Shown here in pieces: positions 3,435-36,429 of a stretch of 36,429 nt of DNA (within the stretch, counting starts at the first letter, position 1; every line of letters begins with the position of its first letter). A program made the position numbers and the translations under genes. The stretch is from Patescibacteria group bacterium (GTDB taxonomy: Bacteria > Patescibacteriota > Patescibacteriia > Patescibacteriales > UBA12465). Below the pieces are notes generated by a model. That model did no database searches and was not told the origin of the DNA. It was given only the letters and a program-made list of their open reading frames with translations. The stretch covers positions 1 through 36,429 of the forward strand of contig JARRBY010000006.1 in NCBI GenBank assembly GCA_029982795.1, read 5' to 3'.

Positions 3435-6368
3435 ATGTTGCCACAACAAAAAAATCAAGATATTAAAAATCAAATTTCTAGGCAAGAGGAAATAACTTTG
3501 TCTTTTTGGCAAAGAAATAAAATTTTTGAAAAATCAGTTGCTAAGGAAGCGCCACAAGGAAACTATTCTTTTTACGATGGTCCTCCTTTTGCTACTGGCA
3601 CGCCTCATTATGGACACTTGGTTTCAAGTATTATGAAAGATGTGGTCCCCCGCTACTTTACCATGCAGGGCTATAGGGTCAAACGTCGTTGGGGTTGGGA
3701 TTGTCACGGTTTACCCATTGAAAATATCGTTGAGAAAGAAATGGGTATTGAGCGCAAGAAAGAAATTGAAGAGATTGGCGTGGGAAAATTTAATGATATT
3801 TGTCGCAGTAAAGTTATGACCTATGCTGCTGACTGGGAGCGGATTATCGCTCGTTTGGGTCGTTTTGTTGATATGAAAAATCCTTATCGCACCATGGATC
3901 TAGATTTTATGGAATCAATTTGGTGGGTTTTTAAAACACTCTGGGACAAAGATTTAATTTATCAAGATTACCGTTCCATGCATATTTGTCCGCGTTGCGA
4001 GACTACTTTGTCGCAGTCGGAAGTTTCCGAAGGATATCGGGATATTAAAGATTTAAGCGCTACGGTGGAGTTTGAATTAGAAGCTGAACCGGGTACCTAT
4101 ATTTTAGCTTGGACTACTACCCCTTGGACTTTAATTGGTAATGTTGCTTTAGCGGTAGGGGTAAATATAGATTATATAAAAGTGAGACAGGCGGGAAAAA
4201 ATTATATTGTAGCCAAAGAAAGACTGGCTGATGTTTTTAAAGATAAAGAATATGAAGTGTTATCTGAATTTCAGGGCGAAGTTTTAGTTGGTCAAAAATA
4301 TAAACCTCTTTTTGATTATTATGCCCGTCAGACTGATTTGGAAAATAAGGAGAATGGTTGGCAGGTATACGCGGCCGATTTTGTGACAACCGAAGAGGGA
4401 ACGGGGGTGGTTCATATCGCACCTGCCTTTGGTGAGGATGATATGAGTTTAGGCAAGGAAAAGAACTTGCCTTTTGTGCAACACGTGGCTCTTGATGGTC
4501 ATTTTAAAGAGGAGGTCGTTGATTTTAAAGGTTTGAATGTTAAACCCCTGGGTGATCATATGGCGACCGATATTGAGATTATAAAATATTTAGCCACTAA
4601 GGAATTGCTTTTTTCTAAAGCAAAATACGAACATAGTTACCCGCATTGTTGGCGCTGTGATACCCCCCTTATTAACTACGCTACTTCATCTTGGTTTGTT
4701 AGTGTTTTAAAATTAAAGGAAAGATTGTTAGCAACCGCTCAGGAAATTAATTGGTTTCCTCGTCATATTAAAGAGGGGCGCTTTGGCAATTGGTTAGAGG
4801 GAGCACGTGATTGGTCAATTTCACGTCAGCGTTTTTGGGCGAGTGTGATTCCGATTTGGGTTTGTGATAAATGTGAACATCATCAGGTGGTTGGTAGTGT
4901 GGCTGAGCTTGAGGCTTTAAGTGGTGTTTCCGGTATTTCTGATATTCATAAGGATAAAGTTGATCCAATTACTTTTGCTTGTTCTCAGTGTGGGGGGACT
5001 ATGCATCGCGTTCCCGATGTTTTAGATTGTTGGTTTGAGTCTGGTTCCATGCCCTATGCGCAGATGCATTATCCGTTTGCTAATCAGGAGCAAATGGAAA
5101 CTAGTTTTCCCGCCCAGTTTATCGCTGAAGGGGTTGATCAGACACGAACGTGGTTTTATTATCTTCAGGTTATTGCTGCCGGTGTAAAAGATAGCCGGGC
5201 TTTTGAAAATGTGATTGTAAATGGCATTGTTTTAGCGGAAGATGGCAAGAAAATGTCAAAGAAGTTAAAGAATTATCCTGATCCAAGTTTAGTTTTGGAC
5301 AAATATGGAGCGGATGCGTTACGGATGTATTTATTAGCTTCACCGGTGATGGCCGCGGAGAATATTAATTTTAGTGAAAAGGGAGTAGAGGAATCACTGC
5401 GCAAAAATGTCATGTTATTACAAAATATTTATAAGTTCTATGAACTTTATGCGTCGACAGAAGAAAAGATAGATGATTATAAAGCTAGAGCCCAGGCAAG
5501 TGAAAATATTTTGGATAAGTGGTTATTAGCTAAGTTTTCAGTTTTGGTTGCTGAAGTTGAAAGTGCGATGCAATCATATAATTTAGCAAAAGCGGTCCGT
5601 CCGATTACGGAGTTTATTGATGAATTTTCTACTTGGTATTTGCGCCGTAGCCGTGATCGCTTTAAAGCGGAAGAACGGGAAGAACGTCTTCTTGTTTTAG
5701 CGGTAACAAAATATTTATTAATTGAATTAGCTAAGGTTATTGCTCCGTTTATGCCTTTTTTAGGGGAGTATCTGTGGCAAGTAGTTTCGGGGTATGATTA
5801 TAAGGAGGAAAATAGGAGTGTGCATTTAGAAAATTGGGTTAAATTAGATTATCAAAAAAATGAGGAAGTCTTAGCGGCGATGGAACAAGTTCGGAAAATA
5901 GTGGAAAGTGGTTTGGCGGCTCGAGATAGTGCGGGGATTAAAATTAGGCAGATGTTAGCCGGCGCGAAAGTACAAATACCAAAAAAGTTAGAACAAAGTT
6001 ATCAAGCTTTAATTAAAGATGAGTTAAATTTAGCTAGTTTAGATATAGAAATTAAAGAGGGAAGTGATATTACCGTCAGTTTGGATACTAATATTACTCC
6101 CGAGTTAAAGGCCGAAGGAATAAAGCGAGAGTTAGTTAGATTTATCAATCGTTTGCGTAAGAATTCGGGACTTAGTTTGCAGGATAAGACGCTGACTATT
6201 ATTTCTGGCAACGAAGCAATTTCTGCACTTGTTTCCAAGTTTGCCTCTTCTATTGCGCTTGATACTTCCAGTCGTGAAGTTAGATTTAGGGTTGAGAAAC
6301 CGGAGGCTGATTTTAGTGATACTGTTAAAATTGACGGGGAAGAAGTGGTAATTTCTTTGCAGAAATAA
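3435..6368 (+). CDS. ileS: Isoleucyl-tRNA synthetase, eukaryote-like (type 2)
   Basis: This class I synthetase charges tRNA-Ile with isoleucine and proofreads valine. The HIGH signature is PHYGH (57-61) and the KMSKS signature is KMSKK (606-610). The CP1 editing domain lies between them and includes TTPWTL and the region around GTGVVHIAPAFGEDD. Several CxxC pairs occur (CPRC, CWRC, CDKC, CSQC), in the arrangement seen in the Thermus / eukaryote-like type 2 enzymes. Type 2 enzymes in other bacteria are often naturally tolerant of mupirocin; that is family knowledge, not seen here. The anticodon-binding domain follows the KMSKK loop, and the protein ends without an obvious C-terminal zinc finger. 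Its 977 residues are normal for type 2. Confidence 0.95.
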   Translation: MLPQQKNQDIKNQISRQEEITLSFWQRNKIFEKSVAKEAPQGNYSFYDGPPFATGTPHYGHLVSSIMKDVVPRYFTMQGYRVKRRWGWDCHGLPIENIVEKEMGIERKKEIEEIGVGKFNDICRSKVMTYAADWERIIARLGRFVDMKNPYRTMDLDFMESIWWVFKTLWDKDLIYQDYRSMHICPRCETTLSQSEVSEGYRDIKDLSATVEFELEAEPGTYILAWTTTPWTLIGNVALAVGVNIDYIKVRQAGKNYIVAKERLADVFKDKEYEVLSEFQGEVLVGQKYKPLFDYYARQTDLENKENGWQVYAADFVTTEEGTGVVHIAPAFGEDDMSLGKEKNLPFVQHVALDGHFKEEVVDFKGLNVKPLGDHMATDIEIIKYLATKELLFSKAKYEHSYPHCWRCDTPLINYATSSWFVSVLKLKERLLATAQEINWFPRHIKEGRFGNWLEGARDWSISRQRFWASVIPIWVCDKCEHHQVVGSVAELEALSGVSGISDIHKDKVDPITFACSQCGGTMHRVPDVLDCWFESGSMPYAQMHYPFANQEQMETSFPAQFIAEGVDQTRTWFYYLQVIAAGVKDSRAFENVIVNGIVLAEDGKKMSKKLKNYPDPSLVLDKYGADALRMYLLASPVMAAENINFSEKGVEESLRKNVMLLQNIYKFYELYASTEEKIDDYKARAQASENILDKWLLAKFSVLVAEVESAMQSYNLAKAVRPITEFIDEFSTWYLRRSRDRFKAEEREERLLVLAVTKYLLIELAKVIAPFMPFLGEYLWQVVSGYDYKEENRSVHLENWVKLDYQKNEEVLAAMEQVRKIVESGLAARDSAGIKIRQMLAGAKVQIPKKLEQSYQALIKDELNLASLDIEIKEGSDITVSLDTNITPELKAEGIKRELVRFINRLRKNSGLSLQDKTLTIISGNEAISALVSKFASSIALDTSSREVRFRVEKPEADFSDTVKIDGEEVVISLQK

Positions 6369-29956: not shown

Positions 29957-31075
29957 ATGTCGACAAAGCAAGAAACAATAAAAATTATGTTTTCCGGCGG
30001 TGGTACCGGTGGTTCGGTCACACCACTGTTGGTGGTTGCCAAGGAATTACGAATGAAGCTGGCTGAGATTGATTTGTTATTTGTGGGCACTAAAAATGGT
30101 CCGGAAAAAAAATTAGTTTCAACTTATAATTTACCCGGAGCACCGCTTAGATTTAAAACAATTATGGCCGGGAAGTGGCGTCGTTATTTTTCCTGGCAAA
30201 ACTTTTTTGATATTTTTAAAATTATTTTTGCCTTTTTTCAATCTTTTATTCTACTGAGCAAAGAACGGCCTAAGGTTGTGGTTAGTGCTGGTGGGTTTGT
30301 TAGTGTACCTTTAGCTTGGGCGGCTTATCTTCAAAGAATTCCGGTTTTAATTCATCAGCAGGACGTCAGGCCCGGATTAGCTAATCGTTTGATGGCAAAA
30401 ACGGCTTGTGTCATTAGTGTCACTTTTGCTAAATCACTTAGTGATTACGGAAATCGAGCGCAGTGGATTGGAAATCCCGCCCCTTTAAAACCTAGTGATG
30501 TTTATATAAAACAGATAAGAGCACAATATGATCTTACCGGGGATAAACCTTTGGTTGTTATTACCGGCGGTGGTACCGGTTCGGCAGTCATTAATCAATT
30601 AACGTGGGAGAAGGCAGACCTTCTTAGTCAATCGGCCCAAATTTTTCATTTAACGGGGACAGGGAAAGCGCCTTCGCGACAAAGACAAGAAAAATTAGCT
30701 CGTCTTCCTGATTTCAAGTGGCGCGAAATTATTGATAATGAAGAATTATTAGCTTTAATCGCGGCGGCTGATTTAGTTGTATCACGTTCCGGTTTAGCGA
30801 CTTTAACTGAATTGTGCGCTTTTGAAAAAGTTGCTATTTTAATTCCGATACCGGCTTCTCATCAAGAAGATAATGCGGCCGTTTTAGCGAAGCAGCAAGC
30901 AGCTTTAGTTTTAGATCAGCGAAAACTTCAGGCTGATACATATTGTGAAAATATTATAACTTTACTTAAAGAAGAGAAAAGACGTCGGGTTTTTAAAAAA
31001 AATATAGCGCAAGTAATGAAAAAAGACGCAAGAGTTAAAATGGCCGAGCAAATTTTACAACTAGCTCAAAAATAA
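29957..31075 (+). CDS. murG: UDP-GlcNAc transferase MurG, divergent
   Basis: MurG adds GlcNAc to lipid I, giving lipid II. The GT-B fold and the position between ftsW and murC support the call. Family motifs are modified: the N-terminal loop is SGGGTGGSVTPLL with Ser20 where GGTGGH has His, and the C-domain loop GGSQGA is GGGTGSAVIN (204-213). The donor-binding region SRSGLATLTELCAFEKVAILIPIPASHQEDNA keeps the Glu and the hydrophobic pattern. At 372 residues the length is normal. Similar replacements are, to my recollection, usual in Patescibacteria. It begins 5 bases after ftsW and ends 2 bases before murC. Confidence 0.93.
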   Translation: MSTKQETIKIMFSGGGTGGSVTPLLVVAKELRMKLAEIDLLFVGTKNGPEKKLVSTYNLPGAPLRFKTIMAGKWRRYFSWQNFFDIFKIIFAFFQSFILLSKERPKVVVSAGGFVSVPLAWAAYLQRIPVLIHQQDVRPGLANRLMAKTACVISVTFAKSLSDYGNRAQWIGNPAPLKPSDVYIKQIRAQYDLTGDKPLVVITGGGTGSAVINQLTWEKADLLSQSAQIFHLTGTGKAPSRQRQEKLARLPDFKWREIIDNEELLALIAAADLVVSRSGLATLTELCAFEKVAILIPIPASHQEDNAAVLAKQQAALVLDQRKLQADTYCENIITLLKEEKRRRVFKKNIAQVMKKDARVKMAEQILQLAQK

Positions 31076-31077
31076 TT

Positions 31078-32493
31078 ATGAAAAAAATAGGCACGATTTA
31101 TATGATAGGGATAAAGGGGGTTGGCATGACAATGCTCGCTCAATTTTTAGTGGCGGCGGGGAATAAAGTGATCGGGTCTGATGTGTCGGAAACATTTCTA
31201 ACCGATGCGGTTTTGAAAAAAAGTGGAATTAAAGTAAAAACTCCTTTTGCTTCTTCTAATATCCCCCCTCAGGTTGATTTAGTAATTTATTCTAGCGCTT
31301 TTAATGTTCAAAACAATGTTGAACTTAAATTTTTAGAAAGTAAAAAAAATCACGAAAAGAATTGGCCGATTATTTCCTATGCTCAGGCTTTAGGTAATTT
31401 ATTTAACAGTTATAAGGGGATAGCGGTTTGCGGTAGTCACGGGAAGACGACGACGACCGCTTGGCTGGCCTATGTTTTATATAAGGCAGGCAAAGATCCT
31501 AAAGCTTTAGTTGGTTCACGTGTTCCACAATTGGGAGGCAGTGCTTTAAACGGAAAGTCTAAACTTTTAGTGGCGGAAGTTGATGAATATCAAAATAAGC
31601 TTCAATATTTTCAGCCTTTTGGTGTTTTGTTAAATAATATTGACTATGATCATCCCGATTTTTTTCCGAATGAGAAAGCGTATAATCAAGTCTTTATTGA
31701 GTTTGTAAAAAAAATTCCCGCTGCCGGTTTTTTAATAATTAATGGATATGATAAAAAAAGTGTTTCGGTGGCTAAACATAGTCAGGGTCAGGTGATAAGT
31801 TATGGTTTAGTGACAAAGGCGCCGGCTTGGACTAAAACGACAGTTAATTATCAGGCTTATGATGTTAAAATAAAGGGGGCTTATCAATATTTTTCTCTTA
31901 ATAATTTAGGTGAGTTCAAAATTAAATTATGGGGTGAGCATAATATTAAAAATGCGCTTGCGGTTATAGCGGCAGCGCGAAAGTTGGGAGTAGCGCTTTC
32001 TAATATTAAAAAATATCTGGCTCAATTTCAGGGAACGGCGAGACGAGGTCAAGTTTTGGGAAGATATCAAGGGGCAATTATTATCGATGACTACGCTCAC
32101 CATCCAACGGAAATTAAGGCAACCTTAGAGGGGATAGCGGCGCACTATCCTAAAAAAACAATTAGAGTTATTTTTCATCCTCATACTTTTACTCGAACCA
32201 AGGCTTTATTTTCCGATTTTGTTACTAGTTTTGGCCAAGCGCATGAGTTGGCAATTTTAAATATCTACGGCTCCGCTCGCGAGAAGCAAGGAGGTATTTC
32301 CAGCCAAATTTTAGTCAAAGCGATTAAAGAAGAAAACAAAAAAAGAAAATTAGAACAGAAGGTAATAAATCTTAAAGATATTAACGCCGCTACTTCTTAT
32401 CTTCGGCAAACAGCGCGGCCAGGAGAGATTGTGGTTTTAATGGGAGCCGGTGATGTTTTTCGAGTGGCAGATAATTTGTTTACTAAAAAATAA
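31078..32493 (+). CDS. murC: UDP-N-acetylmuramate-L-alanine ligase
   Basis: MurC joins L-alanine to UDP-MurNAc using ATP. The N-terminal Rossmann-like domain has MIGIKGVGMTMLA. The ATP-binding P-loop is GSHGKTTTT (119-127, Lys123) in place of the more common GTHGKTTTT. Later Mur ligase motifs include EVDEYQNKLQYF, NNIDYDHPDFF, GEHNIKNALAVIAA, DDYAHHPTEIKATL and FHPHTFTRTKAL. The length of 471 residues is normal. The gene lies 4 bases before the murB start chosen here. Confidence 0.96.
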   Translation: MKKIGTIYMIGIKGVGMTMLAQFLVAAGNKVIGSDVSETFLTDAVLKKSGIKVKTPFASSNIPPQVDLVIYSSAFNVQNNVELKFLESKKNHEKNWPIISYAQALGNLFNSYKGIAVCGSHGKTTTTAWLAYVLYKAGKDPKALVGSRVPQLGGSALNGKSKLLVAEVDEYQNKLQYFQPFGVLLNNIDYDHPDFFPNEKAYNQVFIEFVKKIPAAGFLIINGYDKKSVSVAKHSQGQVISYGLVTKAPAWTKTTVNYQAYDVKIKGAYQYFSLNNLGEFKIKLWGEHNIKNALAVIAAARKLGVALSNIKKYLAQFQGTARRGQVLGRYQGAIIIDDYAHHPTEIKATLEGIAAHYPKKTIRVIFHPHTFTRTKALFSDFVTSFGQAHELAILNIYGSAREKQGGISSQILVKAIKEENKKRKLEQKVINLKDINAATSYLRQTARPGEIVVLMGAGDVFRVADNLFTKK

Positions 32494-32497
32494 TGAT

Positions 32498-33511
32498 ATG
32501 TTTAAAGTAGAGCGCAATAAAGATATTACAAATTTTACAACCATTAAAGTGCCTGTTCGGGCACAGTATTTTGCCGTTTTAAAAGAAAAGGCTGATGTTT
32601 ACTCAGCAATTTCTTTTGCGCAACAAAAGAACTTGACTATTTATATTTTAGGAGGGGGTTCTAATCTTGTTTTTACCAAAAAAATCAAAGGTTTGGTGGT
32701 AAAGAATGAAATTAAGGGGATTGATATTCTAAAAAAGACTAAAACCAAAGTTGTAATTCGTGCCAATTCCGGTGAAAATTGGTCACACTTTGTTTCCTAT
32801 ACCATAAATCACGGATTTTATGGTCTGGAAAATTTATTTTTAATTTATGGAACGGTGGGGGCGGCCCCGGTACAAAATATTGGGGCTTACGGAGTGGAGT
32901 TAAAGGATGTTTTTCTCAGTTTAACGGCGATTGATCTTCAAACCGGCAAGGAAAAAGAATTTTCTTCAAAAGCTTGTCACTTTGCTTATCGAGACAGCGT
33001 GTTTAAGAATAAATATAAAGGGCGCTATTTTATTACCGACGTAACAGTCCAATTGGATTTAAAGCCACATTATAAATTAGATTATGGTCCGATTAAAATG
33101 AAACTGGAAGAACAGGGAATATGTAAACCAACTTTAAAGCAAATGATTGCTATTATAAGTGAGATTAGGAATAGTAAATTACCTAATCCACATTTAATAC
33201 CAAACGCCGGTTCTTTTTTCAAAAATCCGGAAGTAACTCCCGGTGTTTATAAAAAATTACAGAAAAAATATCCGGATCTGCCCGCTTTTAAATTAAACAA
33301 AAAAGTAAAAATACCGGCCGGTTGGTTGATAGAGAAGGCGGGTTTTAAAGGTAAAAAATTTGGGCCCGTGGCGATGTATGAAAAACAAGCTTTAATTTTA
33401 ACCAATCAGGGTGGCAGTGCTCGTCAGGTTTTAGCGCTGGTAAAGCGGGTTAAAAAGAAAGTCAAGCTTCTCTTTGGACTTGATTTAGAAGAGGAAGTTA
33501 ATATAATATAA
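32498..33511 (+). CDS. murB: UDP-N-acetylenolpyruvoylglucosamine reductase
   Basis: MurB reduces UDP-GlcNAc-enolpyruvate to UDP-MurNAc with NADPH through FAD. FAD-binding motifs are LGGGSNLVFTKK and YGTVGAAPVQNIGAYGVEL. The proton donor is Ser239 in NAGSFFKNP. YRDSVFK and the long C-terminal part resemble E. coli type I MurB. The start at 32498 gives 337 residues beginning MFKVERNKDITNFTTIKV, which matches the family N terminus. An in-frame ATG at 32450 would overlap murC by 44 bases and add a non-conserved stretch, so it was not used. It is the last gene of the mur cluster. Confidence 0.95.
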   Translation: MFKVERNKDITNFTTIKVPVRAQYFAVLKEKADVYSAISFAQQKNLTIYILGGGSNLVFTKKIKGLVVKNEIKGIDILKKTKTKVVIRANSGENWSHFVSYTINHGFYGLENLFLIYGTVGAAPVQNIGAYGVELKDVFLSLTAIDLQTGKEKEFSSKACHFAYRDSVFKNKYKGRYFITDVTVQLDLKPHYKLDYGPIKMKLEEQGICKPTLKQMIAIISEIRNSKLPNPHLIPNAGSFFKNPEVTPGVYKKLQKKYPDLPAFKLNKKVKIPAGWLIEKAGFKGKKFGPVAMYEKQALILTNQGGSARQVLALVKRVKKKVKLLFGLDLEEEVNII

Positions 33512-33534
33512 AAGTAAAAATTATTTATATCTCT

Positions 33535-35346
33535 ATGACAGCAAAGGAATTAAGAACTAAATATTTAGAATTTTTCCAAACGAAGGGACACACAGTTATT
33601 TCCAGCGCCTCTTTAATTCCCGAAAATGATCCAACCGTTTTATTCACCACTGCTGGTATGCACCCATTGGTACCCTATCTTTTAGGAGAAAGTCATCCTG
33701 CTGGAACGCGTTTAGTTAGTGTTCAGAAATGTATCAGAACTGATGATATTGATGAGGTGGGAGATAAGACGCATCACACTTTTTTTGAAATGATGGGGAA
33801 TTGGTCGTTGGGTGATTATTTTAAAAAAGAATCAATTTTATACAGTTGGGAATTTTTAACTAGTCCTGATTATTTAGGGCTGGCTAAAGAATGTTTAGCG
33901 GTCTCCGTTTTTGCCGGTGATAGTGATGCCCCTTTTGATCAGGCGGCCGATGACATTTGGGCGGAAATTTTTAGGGCTAATAATTTACCCTTAACCAGAA
34001 TTGCTAAATTACCAAAGAAAAATAATTGGTGGGGTCCGGCGGGTTTAACCGGTCCTTGTGGTCCCGATACAGAAATATTTTATTGGACTGATTTTCAAAA
34101 AGCGGCTCCTTTAAGTTTTAACGATGATAACGAGTCTTGGGTGGAAATTTGGAATAATGTTTTCATGCAATACAATAAGCAGGCTGATGGTAGTTATCAA
34201 CCACTGGCGCAAAAAAATGTTGATACCGGTTTAGGTTTGGAGAGAACTCTCGCCGTTTTAAATGGTTTAGATGACAATTATCAGACGGAATTATTTGTTC
34301 CTTTAATTTCTAAAATTGAAGAATTAAGTAATCAGACTTATTTAAGTCAAATTGAAGTTACCAGGGCGATGCGTATTATTGCCGATCATGTAAAAGCGGC
34401 GACTTTTATTAGTGCGGATGATAAAAATATTAAACCCGCTAACACTGATCAGGGTTATGTTCTAAGACGTTTAATCCGCCGCGCTCTTCGTTATGGACGA
34501 CAACTGGGGATAGAAAAAACAAATTGGTTAGCTGATATTGCTCAAGAGGTTATTAATCTTTATAGTGATTTCTATTCAGAATTGGAGCGTAATCAGAATT
34601 TTATCATAAACGCTTTAAATGAAGAGGAGAAAAAATTTACCCGAACTTTGGAAAAGGGGATGTTGGAATTTGAAAAATTGGCGAGGGGTGATATTAGTGG
34701 GCGTGATGCTTTTAACCTTTATCAAAGTTATGGTTTTCCGTGGGAGATGACAGCAGAATTAGCTAAAGAAAGAGGTTTGTCGGTAGATCAGGCAGGTTTT
34801 GCGGCAGAATTGAAAAAACATCAGGATTTATCTCGAACAGCAACCGCCGGAAAATTCAAAGGTGGTTTAGCTGATAGCAGTGAGAAAACAACCAAGTTGC
34901 ATACGGCCGCTCATCTATTATTAGCAGCGTTGCGTCAAGTTTTGGGTGAACATGTAGCGCAAAAGGGAAGTAATATTACGGCGGAACGACTTCGTTTTGA
35001 TTTTTCTCATCCGGAAAAAATGACGGTTGAACAAATTAACGCTGTCGAGAAAATAGTAAATGATGTTATTGCGGCTGATTTGCCGGTAACTTGCGAAGAA
35101 TTAAGTTTAAAAGAAGCTAAAGAAAGAAAGGCAATGGGAGTATTTGAGTCAAAATATAATGAAAGGGTGAAAGTTTATTCCGTCGCGCCGGTAGTTGCTG
35201 GTAAACCTAATCTAGCGTTAGCTTTTTCACAAGAAATTTGTGGTGGTCCCCACGTGAAGCATACCGGTGTTTTGGGGACATTTAAAATTAAAAAAGAGAG
35301 TTCATCAAGTGCGGGAGTGAGAAGAATTAAGGCGATTTTAGAATAA
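33535..35346 (+). CDS. alaS: Alanyl-tRNA synthetase, short form without C-Ala domain
   Basis: AlaRS charges tRNA-Ala and edits Ser and Gly errors. The class II catalytic core begins LRTKYLEFFQTKGHT and includes KCIRTDDIDEVGDKTHHTFFEMMGNWSLGDYF. The C-terminal part has the editing domain zinc site, with HTAAH (456-460) and CGGPH (569-573), where other bacteria have CGGTH. The protein ends at GVRRIKAILE, exactly where the C-Ala domain of about 250 residues would begin. At 603 residues it is far shorter than the 876 of E. coli. The following 177 bases contain no continuation in any frame, so the short length is real. Confidence 0.95.
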   Translation: MTAKELRTKYLEFFQTKGHTVISSASLIPENDPTVLFTTAGMHPLVPYLLGESHPAGTRLVSVQKCIRTDDIDEVGDKTHHTFFEMMGNWSLGDYFKKESILYSWEFLTSPDYLGLAKECLAVSVFAGDSDAPFDQAADDIWAEIFRANNLPLTRIAKLPKKNNWWGPAGLTGPCGPDTEIFYWTDFQKAAPLSFNDDNESWVEIWNNVFMQYNKQADGSYQPLAQKNVDTGLGLERTLAVLNGLDDNYQTELFVPLISKIEELSNQTYLSQIEVTRAMRIIADHVKAATFISADDKNIKPANTDQGYVLRRLIRRALRYGRQLGIEKTNWLADIAQEVINLYSDFYSELERNQNFIINALNEEEKKFTRTLEKGMLEFEKLARGDISGRDAFNLYQSYGFPWEMTAELAKERGLSVDQAGFAAELKKHQDLSRTATAGKFKGGLADSSEKTTKLHTAAHLLLAALRQVLGEHVAQKGSNITAERLRFDFSHPEKMTVEQINAVEKIVNDVIAADLPVTCEELSLKEAKERKAMGVFESKYNERVKVYSVAPVVAGKPNLALAFSQEICGGPHVKHTGVLGTFKIKKESSSSAGVRRIKAILE

Positions 35347-35393
35347 ACAGTTGAGTCTTTGGTAAGTTGAATTAAATTATTGCTAAATTACTA

Positions 35394-35422
35394 TTGACAA
35401 GGATAAACTTTCCATTTATAAT
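35394..35422 (+). promoter_or_regulatory. Consensus sigma-70 promoter of the infA operon
   Basis: TTGACA (35394-35399) and TATAAT (35417-35422) are both perfect and are separated by exactly 17 bases. This is the strongest promoter in the window. Transcription should start near 35429, leaving a leader of about 95 bases before infA that contains a terminator-like hairpin. Confidence 0.88.
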
Positions 35423-35464
35423 GGCTTTATTAAGAATATTAAATTAAATAAAATAAATATTTTT

Positions 35465-35508
35465 AAAAACTTTGATAAGACAAGCTTGTCTTTATCAAAC
35501 TTTTTTTT
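35465..35508 (+). terminator. Terminator-like hairpin in the infA leader
   Basis: TTTGATAAGACAAG (35471-35484) pairs with CTTGTCTTTATCAAA (35485-35499) with a single bulged A. After a C-C mismatch the stem can extend by five A-T pairs. Eight T residues follow (35501-35508). It has the form of a rho-independent terminator, but it lies between the strong promoter and infA. It could act as an attenuator or end a short RNA of about 80 bases. Confidence 0.8.
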
Positions 35509-35523
35509 GTTAAGATTAAAAAA

Positions 35524-35769
35524 ATGGGAAAAAACAGCAATAACTCTGACAACTTAAACGCTAAGGATTTTATTGAAATGCAAGGCGAAGTAGTCGAGTT
35601 GATGCCGGCCGCCAGTTTCCGTGTTACTCTTGAAAACGGTCACGAAATTTTGGCGCATTTATCAGGCAAAATGAGAATGAATCGAATCCGTCTTTTGCCG
35701 GGCGATAAGGTGAAATTACAGATTAGTCCCTATGATTTGACTAAGGGGAGAATCACCTATCGTCTCTAA
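35524..35769 (+). CDS. infA: Translation initiation factor IF-1
   Basis: IF-1 occupies the A site of the 30S subunit during initiation. The single S1-like OB domain is clear: [42 protein letters not shown] and [13 protein letters not shown]. The length of 81 residues is about nine longer than the usual 72 because of an Asn/Ser-rich N-terminal extension ([10 protein letters not shown]), and the end lacks the usual basic tail. No Shine-Dalgarno sequence is visible. A later start at Met19 would remove part of the OB domain and is rejected. Confidence 0.95.
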
Positions 35770-35786
35770 AATTTAGAAAGAATTGC

Positions 35787-35814
35787 TTTAATATAACCTC
35801 GCAGTTAAATTAAA
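35787..35814 (+). other. AT-rich hairpin between infA and rpmJ
   Basis: TTTAATATAAC (35787-35797) pairs with GTTAAATTAAA (35804-35814) with one mismatch in 11 positions and a 6-base loop. No T run follows, so it is not a terminator. It may stabilise the RNA or serve as a binding site, or it may be chance in AT-rich sequence. Confidence 0.4.
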
Positions 35815-35837
35815 AGTGAGCTTAATATTGTGAAATT

Positions 35838-35951
35838 ATGAAAGTGAGAGCCAGCGCGAAAAAAATTTGTAAAGATTGCAAAATTGTGCGACGCAAAGGT
35901 CGGGTCCACGTGATTTGCAAAAACCCTAAACACAAACAAAGACAAGGGTAA
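35838..35951 (+). CDS. rpmJ: Ribosomal protein L36 (bL36)
   Basis: This 37-residue protein of the large subunit starts [20 protein letters not shown]. The zinc-ribbon ligands Cys11, Cys14, Cys27 and His32 are all present, so this is the zinc-binding (C+) form. It is highly basic and ends KHKQRQG as expected. It lies between infA and rpsM, in the standard order of this operon. Confidence 0.96.
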
Positions 35952-35962
35952 TTTTTTATTTT

Positions 35963-36358
35963 ATGGCAGTAAGAATAGCGGGAATAAACATTCCTAATGA
36001 AAAAAGAATAGAAATCGCTTTAACTTATATTTACGGTATTGGCCGAACTCGTGCCAATAAAATTTTAGCGGAAGCTAAGGTCAACGCTGATATAAGAGTA
36101 AAAGATTTAAAAGAGGAGGACGTTAATCGTCTTCGTGAGATTGTGGAGAAAAAATTCATTGTTGAGGGTGATTTAAGACGAGAGATTCAGAGTAATATTA
36201 AACGTTTAAAAGAAATTAACTCTTGGCGGGGTTTAAGACATAGCCGGCATTTGCCAGTCAGAGGCCAGCGAACTAAAACTAACAGCCGCACTGTTCGTGG
36301 TAATAAACGTCTGACCATGGGAAGTGGTAAAAGCAAGGCAGGCTTGCAAAAGACCTAA
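35963..36358 (+). CDS. rpsM: Ribosomal protein S13 (uS13)
   Basis: S13 sits in the head of the 30S subunit and contacts the 50S subunit and P-site tRNA. The N terminus ARIAGVNIP-like ([20 protein letters not shown]) and the helix-hairpin-helix [12 protein letters not shown] are typical. The C-terminal tail has [19 protein letters not shown], which contacts tRNA and 16S rRNA in other bacteria. The length of 131 residues is normal to slightly long, with the extra residues at the C terminus ([21 protein letters not shown]). It follows rpmJ by 11 bases. Confidence 0.96.
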
Positions 36359-36381
36359 TAAACTAAGAAAGTTCATATAAT

Positions 36382-36429
36382 ATGTCTGACAAAGAAAAAA
36401 AAGAACAAGGAGCTGAATTAGAGGCTGAA
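36382..36429 (+). CDS. rpsK: Start of the next gene, probably ribosomal protein S11 (partial)
   Basis: Only 16 codons are visible (MSDKEKKEQGAELEAE), running off the end of the window. The charged, low-complexity stretch shows no domain. In the infA-rpmJ-rpsM order, rpsK normally follows, and S11 proteins can carry a charged N-terminal extension, so rpsK is the best guess from position alone. The ATG is directly preceded by TATAAT, which is too close to be its promoter. Confidence 0.5.
   Translation, partial: MSDKEKKEQGAELEAE

Follow-up and report, generated by a model that had tools for sequence, protein, structure and literature searches.

In the rimP-leader, a bare intrinsic terminator with conserved stem letters precedes the rimP-nusA-infB genes at a distance of 4-130 nt; an antiterminator is not visible in most species, and some carry a tandem upstream copy that bears the inverse motif (Naville and Gautheret 2010, PMC2965389). 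Attenuation at an intrinsic leader terminator is also known from the bL20-dependent infC and L10(L12)4-dependent rplJL leaders of Bacillus subtilis, and the alpha operon of Escherichia coli is controlled at the translational level by ribosomal protein S4, at rpsM; how the alpha-operon genes are regulated has been called unknown even in Bacilli (PMC10931766). A literature search on leaders or terminators in Patescibacteria yielded nothing relevant.

Here we examine the leader of infA in a Patescibacteria group bacterium of the order Patescibacteriales (assembly GCA_029982795.1), one of a group of uncultured bacteria with very small genomes. The leader lies near the end of a stretch of 36,429 nt of contig JARRBY010000006.1, hereafter the window. 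Its closest known counterpart appears to be the rimP-leader. In both, a bare terminator sits in the leader of a translation/transcription operon, the stem letters are conserved and the gap to the gene varies. An antiterminator is not visible in most species with the rimP-leader or in the family of the window, and some cases of each have a tandem copy with an inverse motif. They differ in lineage, in the genes (here infA and the alpha-operon genes) and in the stem, which is UUUGRU..AYCAAA as opposed to GGGC..GCCC. When membership of the rimP-leader family was considered, the stem read UUUGAUAAG.. versus GGGc(...)gCCC, and a comparison of the leader with Rfam gave no family at the gathering score and none at E-values up to 10. 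Because both the gene and the stem sequence differ, the infA leader was placed outside this family.

As in the L20/infC and L10/rplJL leaders, an intrinsic leader terminator would attenuate an operon that encodes an initiation factor, ribosomal proteins or both, but the B. subtilis leaders have larger protein-binding folds and alternative structures, whereas the infA leader in the family of the window is about 80 nt long and has no such domain. The S4 control of the E. coli alpha operon works through a pseudoknot. The genes under this control overlap with those of the infA operon (rpsM, rpsK, rpsD, rpoA and rplQ), but the S4 system is translational and acts at rpsM, whereas the Patescibacteria element is a terminator before infA that lacks an Rfam match. 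Assignment to a ribosomal-protein leader of the L20, L10 or S4 alpha-operon types was rejected, as the known protein-binding folds were not found and no Rfam family matched. The infA leader is probably a further case of a known kind of attenuator.

Promoter and hairpin upstream of infA

The assembly of this genome comprises 668,587 bases in 35 contigs and is 98.8% complete; genome-wide counts drew on 594,632 of these bases. The gene run alaS-infA-rpmJ-rpsM forms the end of the window, and the contig stops past rpsM (Table 1). The ATG taken as the start of infA agrees with the Pfam match to IF-1. In G006, a relative from the same genus, the genes run infA-rpmJ-rpsM-rpsK-rpsD-rpoA-rplQ-rplM-rpsI and then a prfB-like gene, an order with Pfam support, so that the ten products are IF-1, L36, S13, S11, S4, RNA polymerase alpha, L17, L13, S9 and a peptide chain release factor. 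In 70 of the 99 loci examined in the order, alaS precedes infA and has the same orientation. The alaS of the window is short (603 aa) and terminates just past the tRNA_SAD domain, with no Pfam domain beyond.

Table 1. Features at the infA locus, in positions of the window.
Feature	Position	Strand	Basis or remark
alaS	33535..35346	+	same strand, 5' of infA; stop at 35346
Consensus sigma-70-type promoter, TTGACA-17-TATAAT	35394..35422	+	TTGACA 35394-35399, TATAAT 35417-35422; expected start ~35429
Predicted terminated leader RNA, ~80 nt	35429..35508	+	inferred from promoter and terminator
Weak A+U-only 5' hairpin	35430..35466 (35430-35440 with 35456-35466)	+	fold; absent from some relatives
Terminator hairpin, 12 pairs, one bulged U (35491)	35471..35499	+	fold; conserved and covarying
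U8 tract of terminator	35501..35508	+	sequence
infA, translation initiation factor IF-1	35524..35769	+	Pfam PF01176
rpmJ, ribosomal protein L36, 37 codons	35838..35951	+	sequence; orthologue Pfam-confirmed in G006
rpsM, ribosomal protein S13	35963..36358	+	Pfam PF00416

An initial annotation of this DNA had proposed a perfect promoter with a start at about 35429, and our data confirm the promoter sequence. The infA promoter is the single site with a 12/12 match and a 17-nt spacer within positions 30000-36429, and sites of 11-12/12 with the same spacer were identified at 34 of 36 loci in the family of the window and at 58 of 63 loci in the remaining families, that is, at 92 of 99 loci across the order. 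The exact pattern occurred 10 times on both strands of the 594,632 bases, as compared to 0.56 occurrences expected from the base composition (0.034 per 36-kb window), which indicates that the infA promoter is no chance match. The same annotation had suggested a secondary box, TTGTCT at 35486 and TAAGAT at 35511, as the promoter of a leaderless infA start. This suggestion was not borne out: the two boxes match the consensus at 4/6 positions each (8/12), are separated by a 19-nt spacer and lack conservation, TAAGAT being confined to this genome and its closest relative while the remaining members of the genus have GTGTTAATGTC at that place. Elsewhere in the genome (contig C2, 15661-15745), a second 12/12 promoter is followed by a hairpin and a T-rich stretch 18 nt 5' of a gene for a typA-like translational GTPase, in a layout that resembles the one at infA.

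The hairpin pairs the 5' arm UUUGAUAAGACA (35471-35482) with UGUC-u-UUAUCAAA (35487-35499) across a loop of 4 nt and is separated from the U8 tract by C35500. The bulge and the U8 tract were as first described, but the 14 pairs originally counted are reduced to a realistic 12, since the extra pairs fall inside a palindromic loop of insufficient size. The stem is A+U-rich, with G-C pairs at 3 of 12 positions, a point against attenuation. Folding of 35425-35530 yielded a z-score of -2.24 relative to shuffled sequences, and the dG of -9.5 and T-score of 5.6 for the hairpin are similar to or better than those of 148 hairpin/U-tract sites that closely follow genes in the same genome (medians -9.7 and 4.4). 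A stable hairpin with an immediate U-run is one hallmark of a Rho-independent terminator, and by the standard of its own genome the leader hairpin is an ordinary one. A simple terminator scan did not list it. The terminated RNA predicted in relatives has a median length of 79-80 nt. Among other RNA elements in this genome, a very stable hairpin (dG -25.5) with a T6 tract is located near 3751 on the minus strand of contig C12, 35 nt 5' of an ORF that by eye resembles threonyl-tRNA synthetase; the contig had no Rfam match and the first 90 residues of the ORF no Pfam match. A Group I intron (Rfam RF00028, 93.5 bits) is situated amid several tRNA genes on contig C23 (L165:2270-2512).

Conservation and covariation among relatives

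To examine conservation, we gathered the DNA upstream of infA in 99 genomes belonging to the order and derived expectations for hairpins from dinucleotide shuffles. A hairpin with a U-tract between the promoter and the coding sequence was present at 35 of 36 loci in the family of the window (4.8 expected) and at 55 of 62 loci in the other families (9.4 expected). A hairpin not conserved in relatives with the same promoter would speak against attenuation; the opposite was found. In the other families of the order, about one locus in ten has no clear terminator, which counts against an attenuator. In the class outside the order the arrangement was still common (28/39 versus 6.4 expected), and it was less frequent in a named sample of Patescibacteria from beyond the order, some members of which are also in the class sample (14/29 versus 4.6 expected), and rare in the other classes of the phylum (6/25 versus 2.2 expected). 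As controls we used two genes from the same family. The groES gene had a promoter of 10-11/12 in 22 of 22 genomes and a terminator-like leader in 5 of these 22, with no sequence in common; for rpsT, such a leader was seen in 8 of 30 cases and a good promoter was mostly missing. A terminator placed between promoter and gene start and retained in relatives, as expected of an attenuator, is thus found at infA when groES is taken as the control. The proposal of an attenuated leader governing infA-rpmJ-rpsM is well supported by this joint conservation of promoter and hairpin across the order.

In the genus, the whole unit is recognisable on inspection, with the promoter followed by AATTTTGATAAAG-loop-CTTTATCAAATTTTTTTGTGTTAATG. 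The pattern TTTGATAA-N{3,16}-TTTATCAAATTTTTTTG occurred once per genome in 17 genomes of the family and not at all in the reversed control. A covariance model of the hairpin gave matches in 55 of 111 whole genomes, all of them at infA with the exception of G052, where the model match and the infA match are on separate contigs and the infA match starts at a contig end. The occurrence of the hairpin is specific to infA. Other apparent copies of the leader, in this genome or in relatives (L003, L020 and L021), were discarded as short A+T-rich matches in or beside unrelated genes. Upstream of the terminator, conservation of the leader sequence ends at close relatives and does not extend from one genus to another. 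Family f20 has, in place of this stem, unrelated ones with a T run, one of which is GC-rich with a T8 tract. Many infA leaders from other orders of the class (L258-L297) have at the same place a hairpin with a different stem motif, closed by ATTCT/AGAAT and followed by a T-rich stretch.

The initial annotation had also asked for covariation of the leader in related genomes. For this analysis, we aligned 44 hairpins, drawn from 12 families, by sequence alone; a count over the outer 8 pairs was discarded in its favour, as the stem had there been picked for its pairing. The stem was paired in 97.2% of cells and covaries, with a score above all of 500 shuffles, while shifting the partner by one column reduced the pairing to 47-60%. 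The signal leans mainly on the pair of columns 9 and 31 (G-C in 23, A-U in 20 and G-U in 1 of the hairpins), since both sides change in just 2 of 8 stem pairs, and the distribution of this pair tracks the families. The apical part of the hairpin varies almost freely in sequence and length.

Probable transcription attenuation and competing explanations

Taken together, these features suggest that the infA leader is a promoter-proximal transcription attenuator, to which we assign a probability of about 0.68. RNA polymerase would initiate at the near-consensus promoter about 100 nt 5' of infA and reach the intrinsic terminator after some 70-80 nt, where a fraction of the complexes would terminate and release an RNA of about 80 nt while the remainder continue into the infA operon. 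Because the near-perfect promoter leads almost directly into a conserved terminator, the output of the operon is probably set by the frequency at which polymerase passes it. In such a design the terminator would trim a very strong promoter to the required output and offer a place at which the supply of translation genes' products, ribosomal proteins and RNA polymerase alpha could be controlled. That termination takes place in the cell, and is only partial, we infer from the DNA. The infA gene is essential in the bacteria studied, which requires substantial read-through, so that the hairpin would act as a brake or valve.

Another explanation, which we consider unlikely, is that the hairpin and U-rich tract aid or control ribosome binding on the infA mRNA or shield its 5' end, with termination being incidental. 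Such a translation or stability element would fit with the absence of an apparent Shine-Dalgarno sequence before the infA start codon, and with the situation in the family of the window, where the hairpin, U7 and GUGUUAAUGUC are near-invariant as far as the first codons and the distance to the AUG is 9-24 nt, with a median of 13 nt and 12-14 nt in most genomes. Outside the family, however, the distance to the ATG spans 9 to 137 nt while the join of stem and U-tract stays fixed, and in G090, G092 and G095 the hairpin and TTTTTTTG(T/C)GTTT are retained with the start codon farther off. In the genome of the window itself, the ancestral start GTGTTAATG has mutated and the infA start has moved about 10 nt in the 3' direction, yet the hairpin was kept, together with a U-tract that is longer still. 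We favour termination because the distance to the start codon varies, albeit being near-constant within the family, whereas the join of hairpin and U-tract is fixed. It is considerably less probable that the hairpin is a plain alaS terminator that happens to be located 3' of the infA promoter and insulates infA from read-through with no regulatory role. The position of alaS in 70 of the 99 loci agrees with this, and in the window the DNA from the alaS stop to the infA promoter showed no other terminator, but a terminator at this site would also halt the transcripts of the infA promoter. Moreover, the leader hairpin persists where alaS was not found upstream, as in G019, G036, G093 and G095, and it must be more than an alaS terminator since some relatives, including G013, G017, G039, G073, G087 and G100, have a separate terminator 5' of the promoter and nevertheless retain the one in the leader.

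The inverted repeat (TTTGATAA/TTATCAAA, or TTTGGTAA/TTACCAAA) could in principle be a DNA operator for a repressor, and the conservation of the stem letters beyond the needs of a terminator, along with a third alternating copy in other families, is what such a site might show. We regard this as highly improbable given the strict join of stem to U-tract, the G-U pairs that preserve pairing in RNA but not in DNA and the unrelated stems in f20; moreover, the repeat is present once per genome and hence has no regulon. The initial annotation had also raised the possibility of a short RNA of about 80 bases, and a terminated RNA of this size is predicted in most relatives. It stands as a by-product, since an attenuator necessarily yields one, but a separate small RNA acting in trans is scarcely credible: the leader outside the terminator is not conserved across genera and the hairpin unit is tied to infA.

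Candidate modes of control

Termination at the infA leader may respond to a protein that recognises the stem or to a general elongation factor, or may be set to a fixed ratio with nothing beyond it. No alternative partner for the 5' arm was found above shuffles in the family of the window, in line with the lack of an antiterminator noted from the outset, and no leader ORF was apparent, as had also been remarked. There was likewise no consistent 5' sensor fold, the 5' hairpin being weak and overall inconsistent (mean z-score of -0.96 over 77 leaders). The competing antiterminator that characterises riboswitches and T-boxes is thus not seen in this family, and a candidate third segment occurs only in other families. 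Since neither an antiterminator partner nor a recognisable RNA-switch domain was found in the family of the window, a factor that recognises the stem is favoured; the most likely control would be a NusA-type elongation factor or an operon product that alters read-through via the conserved stem. As no regulator or sensor was found, the terminator may be a fixed brake only.

An extra TTTACCAA is located directly 5' of the 5' arm TTGGTAAA, which also pairs with TTTRCCAA, in families f11, f12, f14, f15, f18 and some others. Two overlapping and mutually exclusive hairpins result, each often with U residues after it. This pairing rose above shuffles at p 0.05 in just 11 of all 80 leaders, concentrated in families with the extra TTTACCAA.

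A tentative and rather doubtful extension is that the infA/alpha operon of these Patescibacteria is attenuated autogenously, with an operon product (S4, S13, IF-1, RNA polymerase alpha or another) or NusA recognising the conserved UUUGRU..AYCAAA stem and setting the level of termination. In the families with a third segment (TTTACCAA - TTGGTAAA - TTTRCCAA), the two hairpins sharing one strand would then form a tandem or switching version. If true, this would be a new mode of alpha operon control. A short, single, conserved terminator is easily tested, and it would provide a simple control point for the supply of ribosomes and polymerase in reduced genomes. In one infA leader of family f14 (L079, genome G085), TTATCGCG near the RNA start could pair with CGCGATAA 3' of the terminator and thereby close the whole leader.
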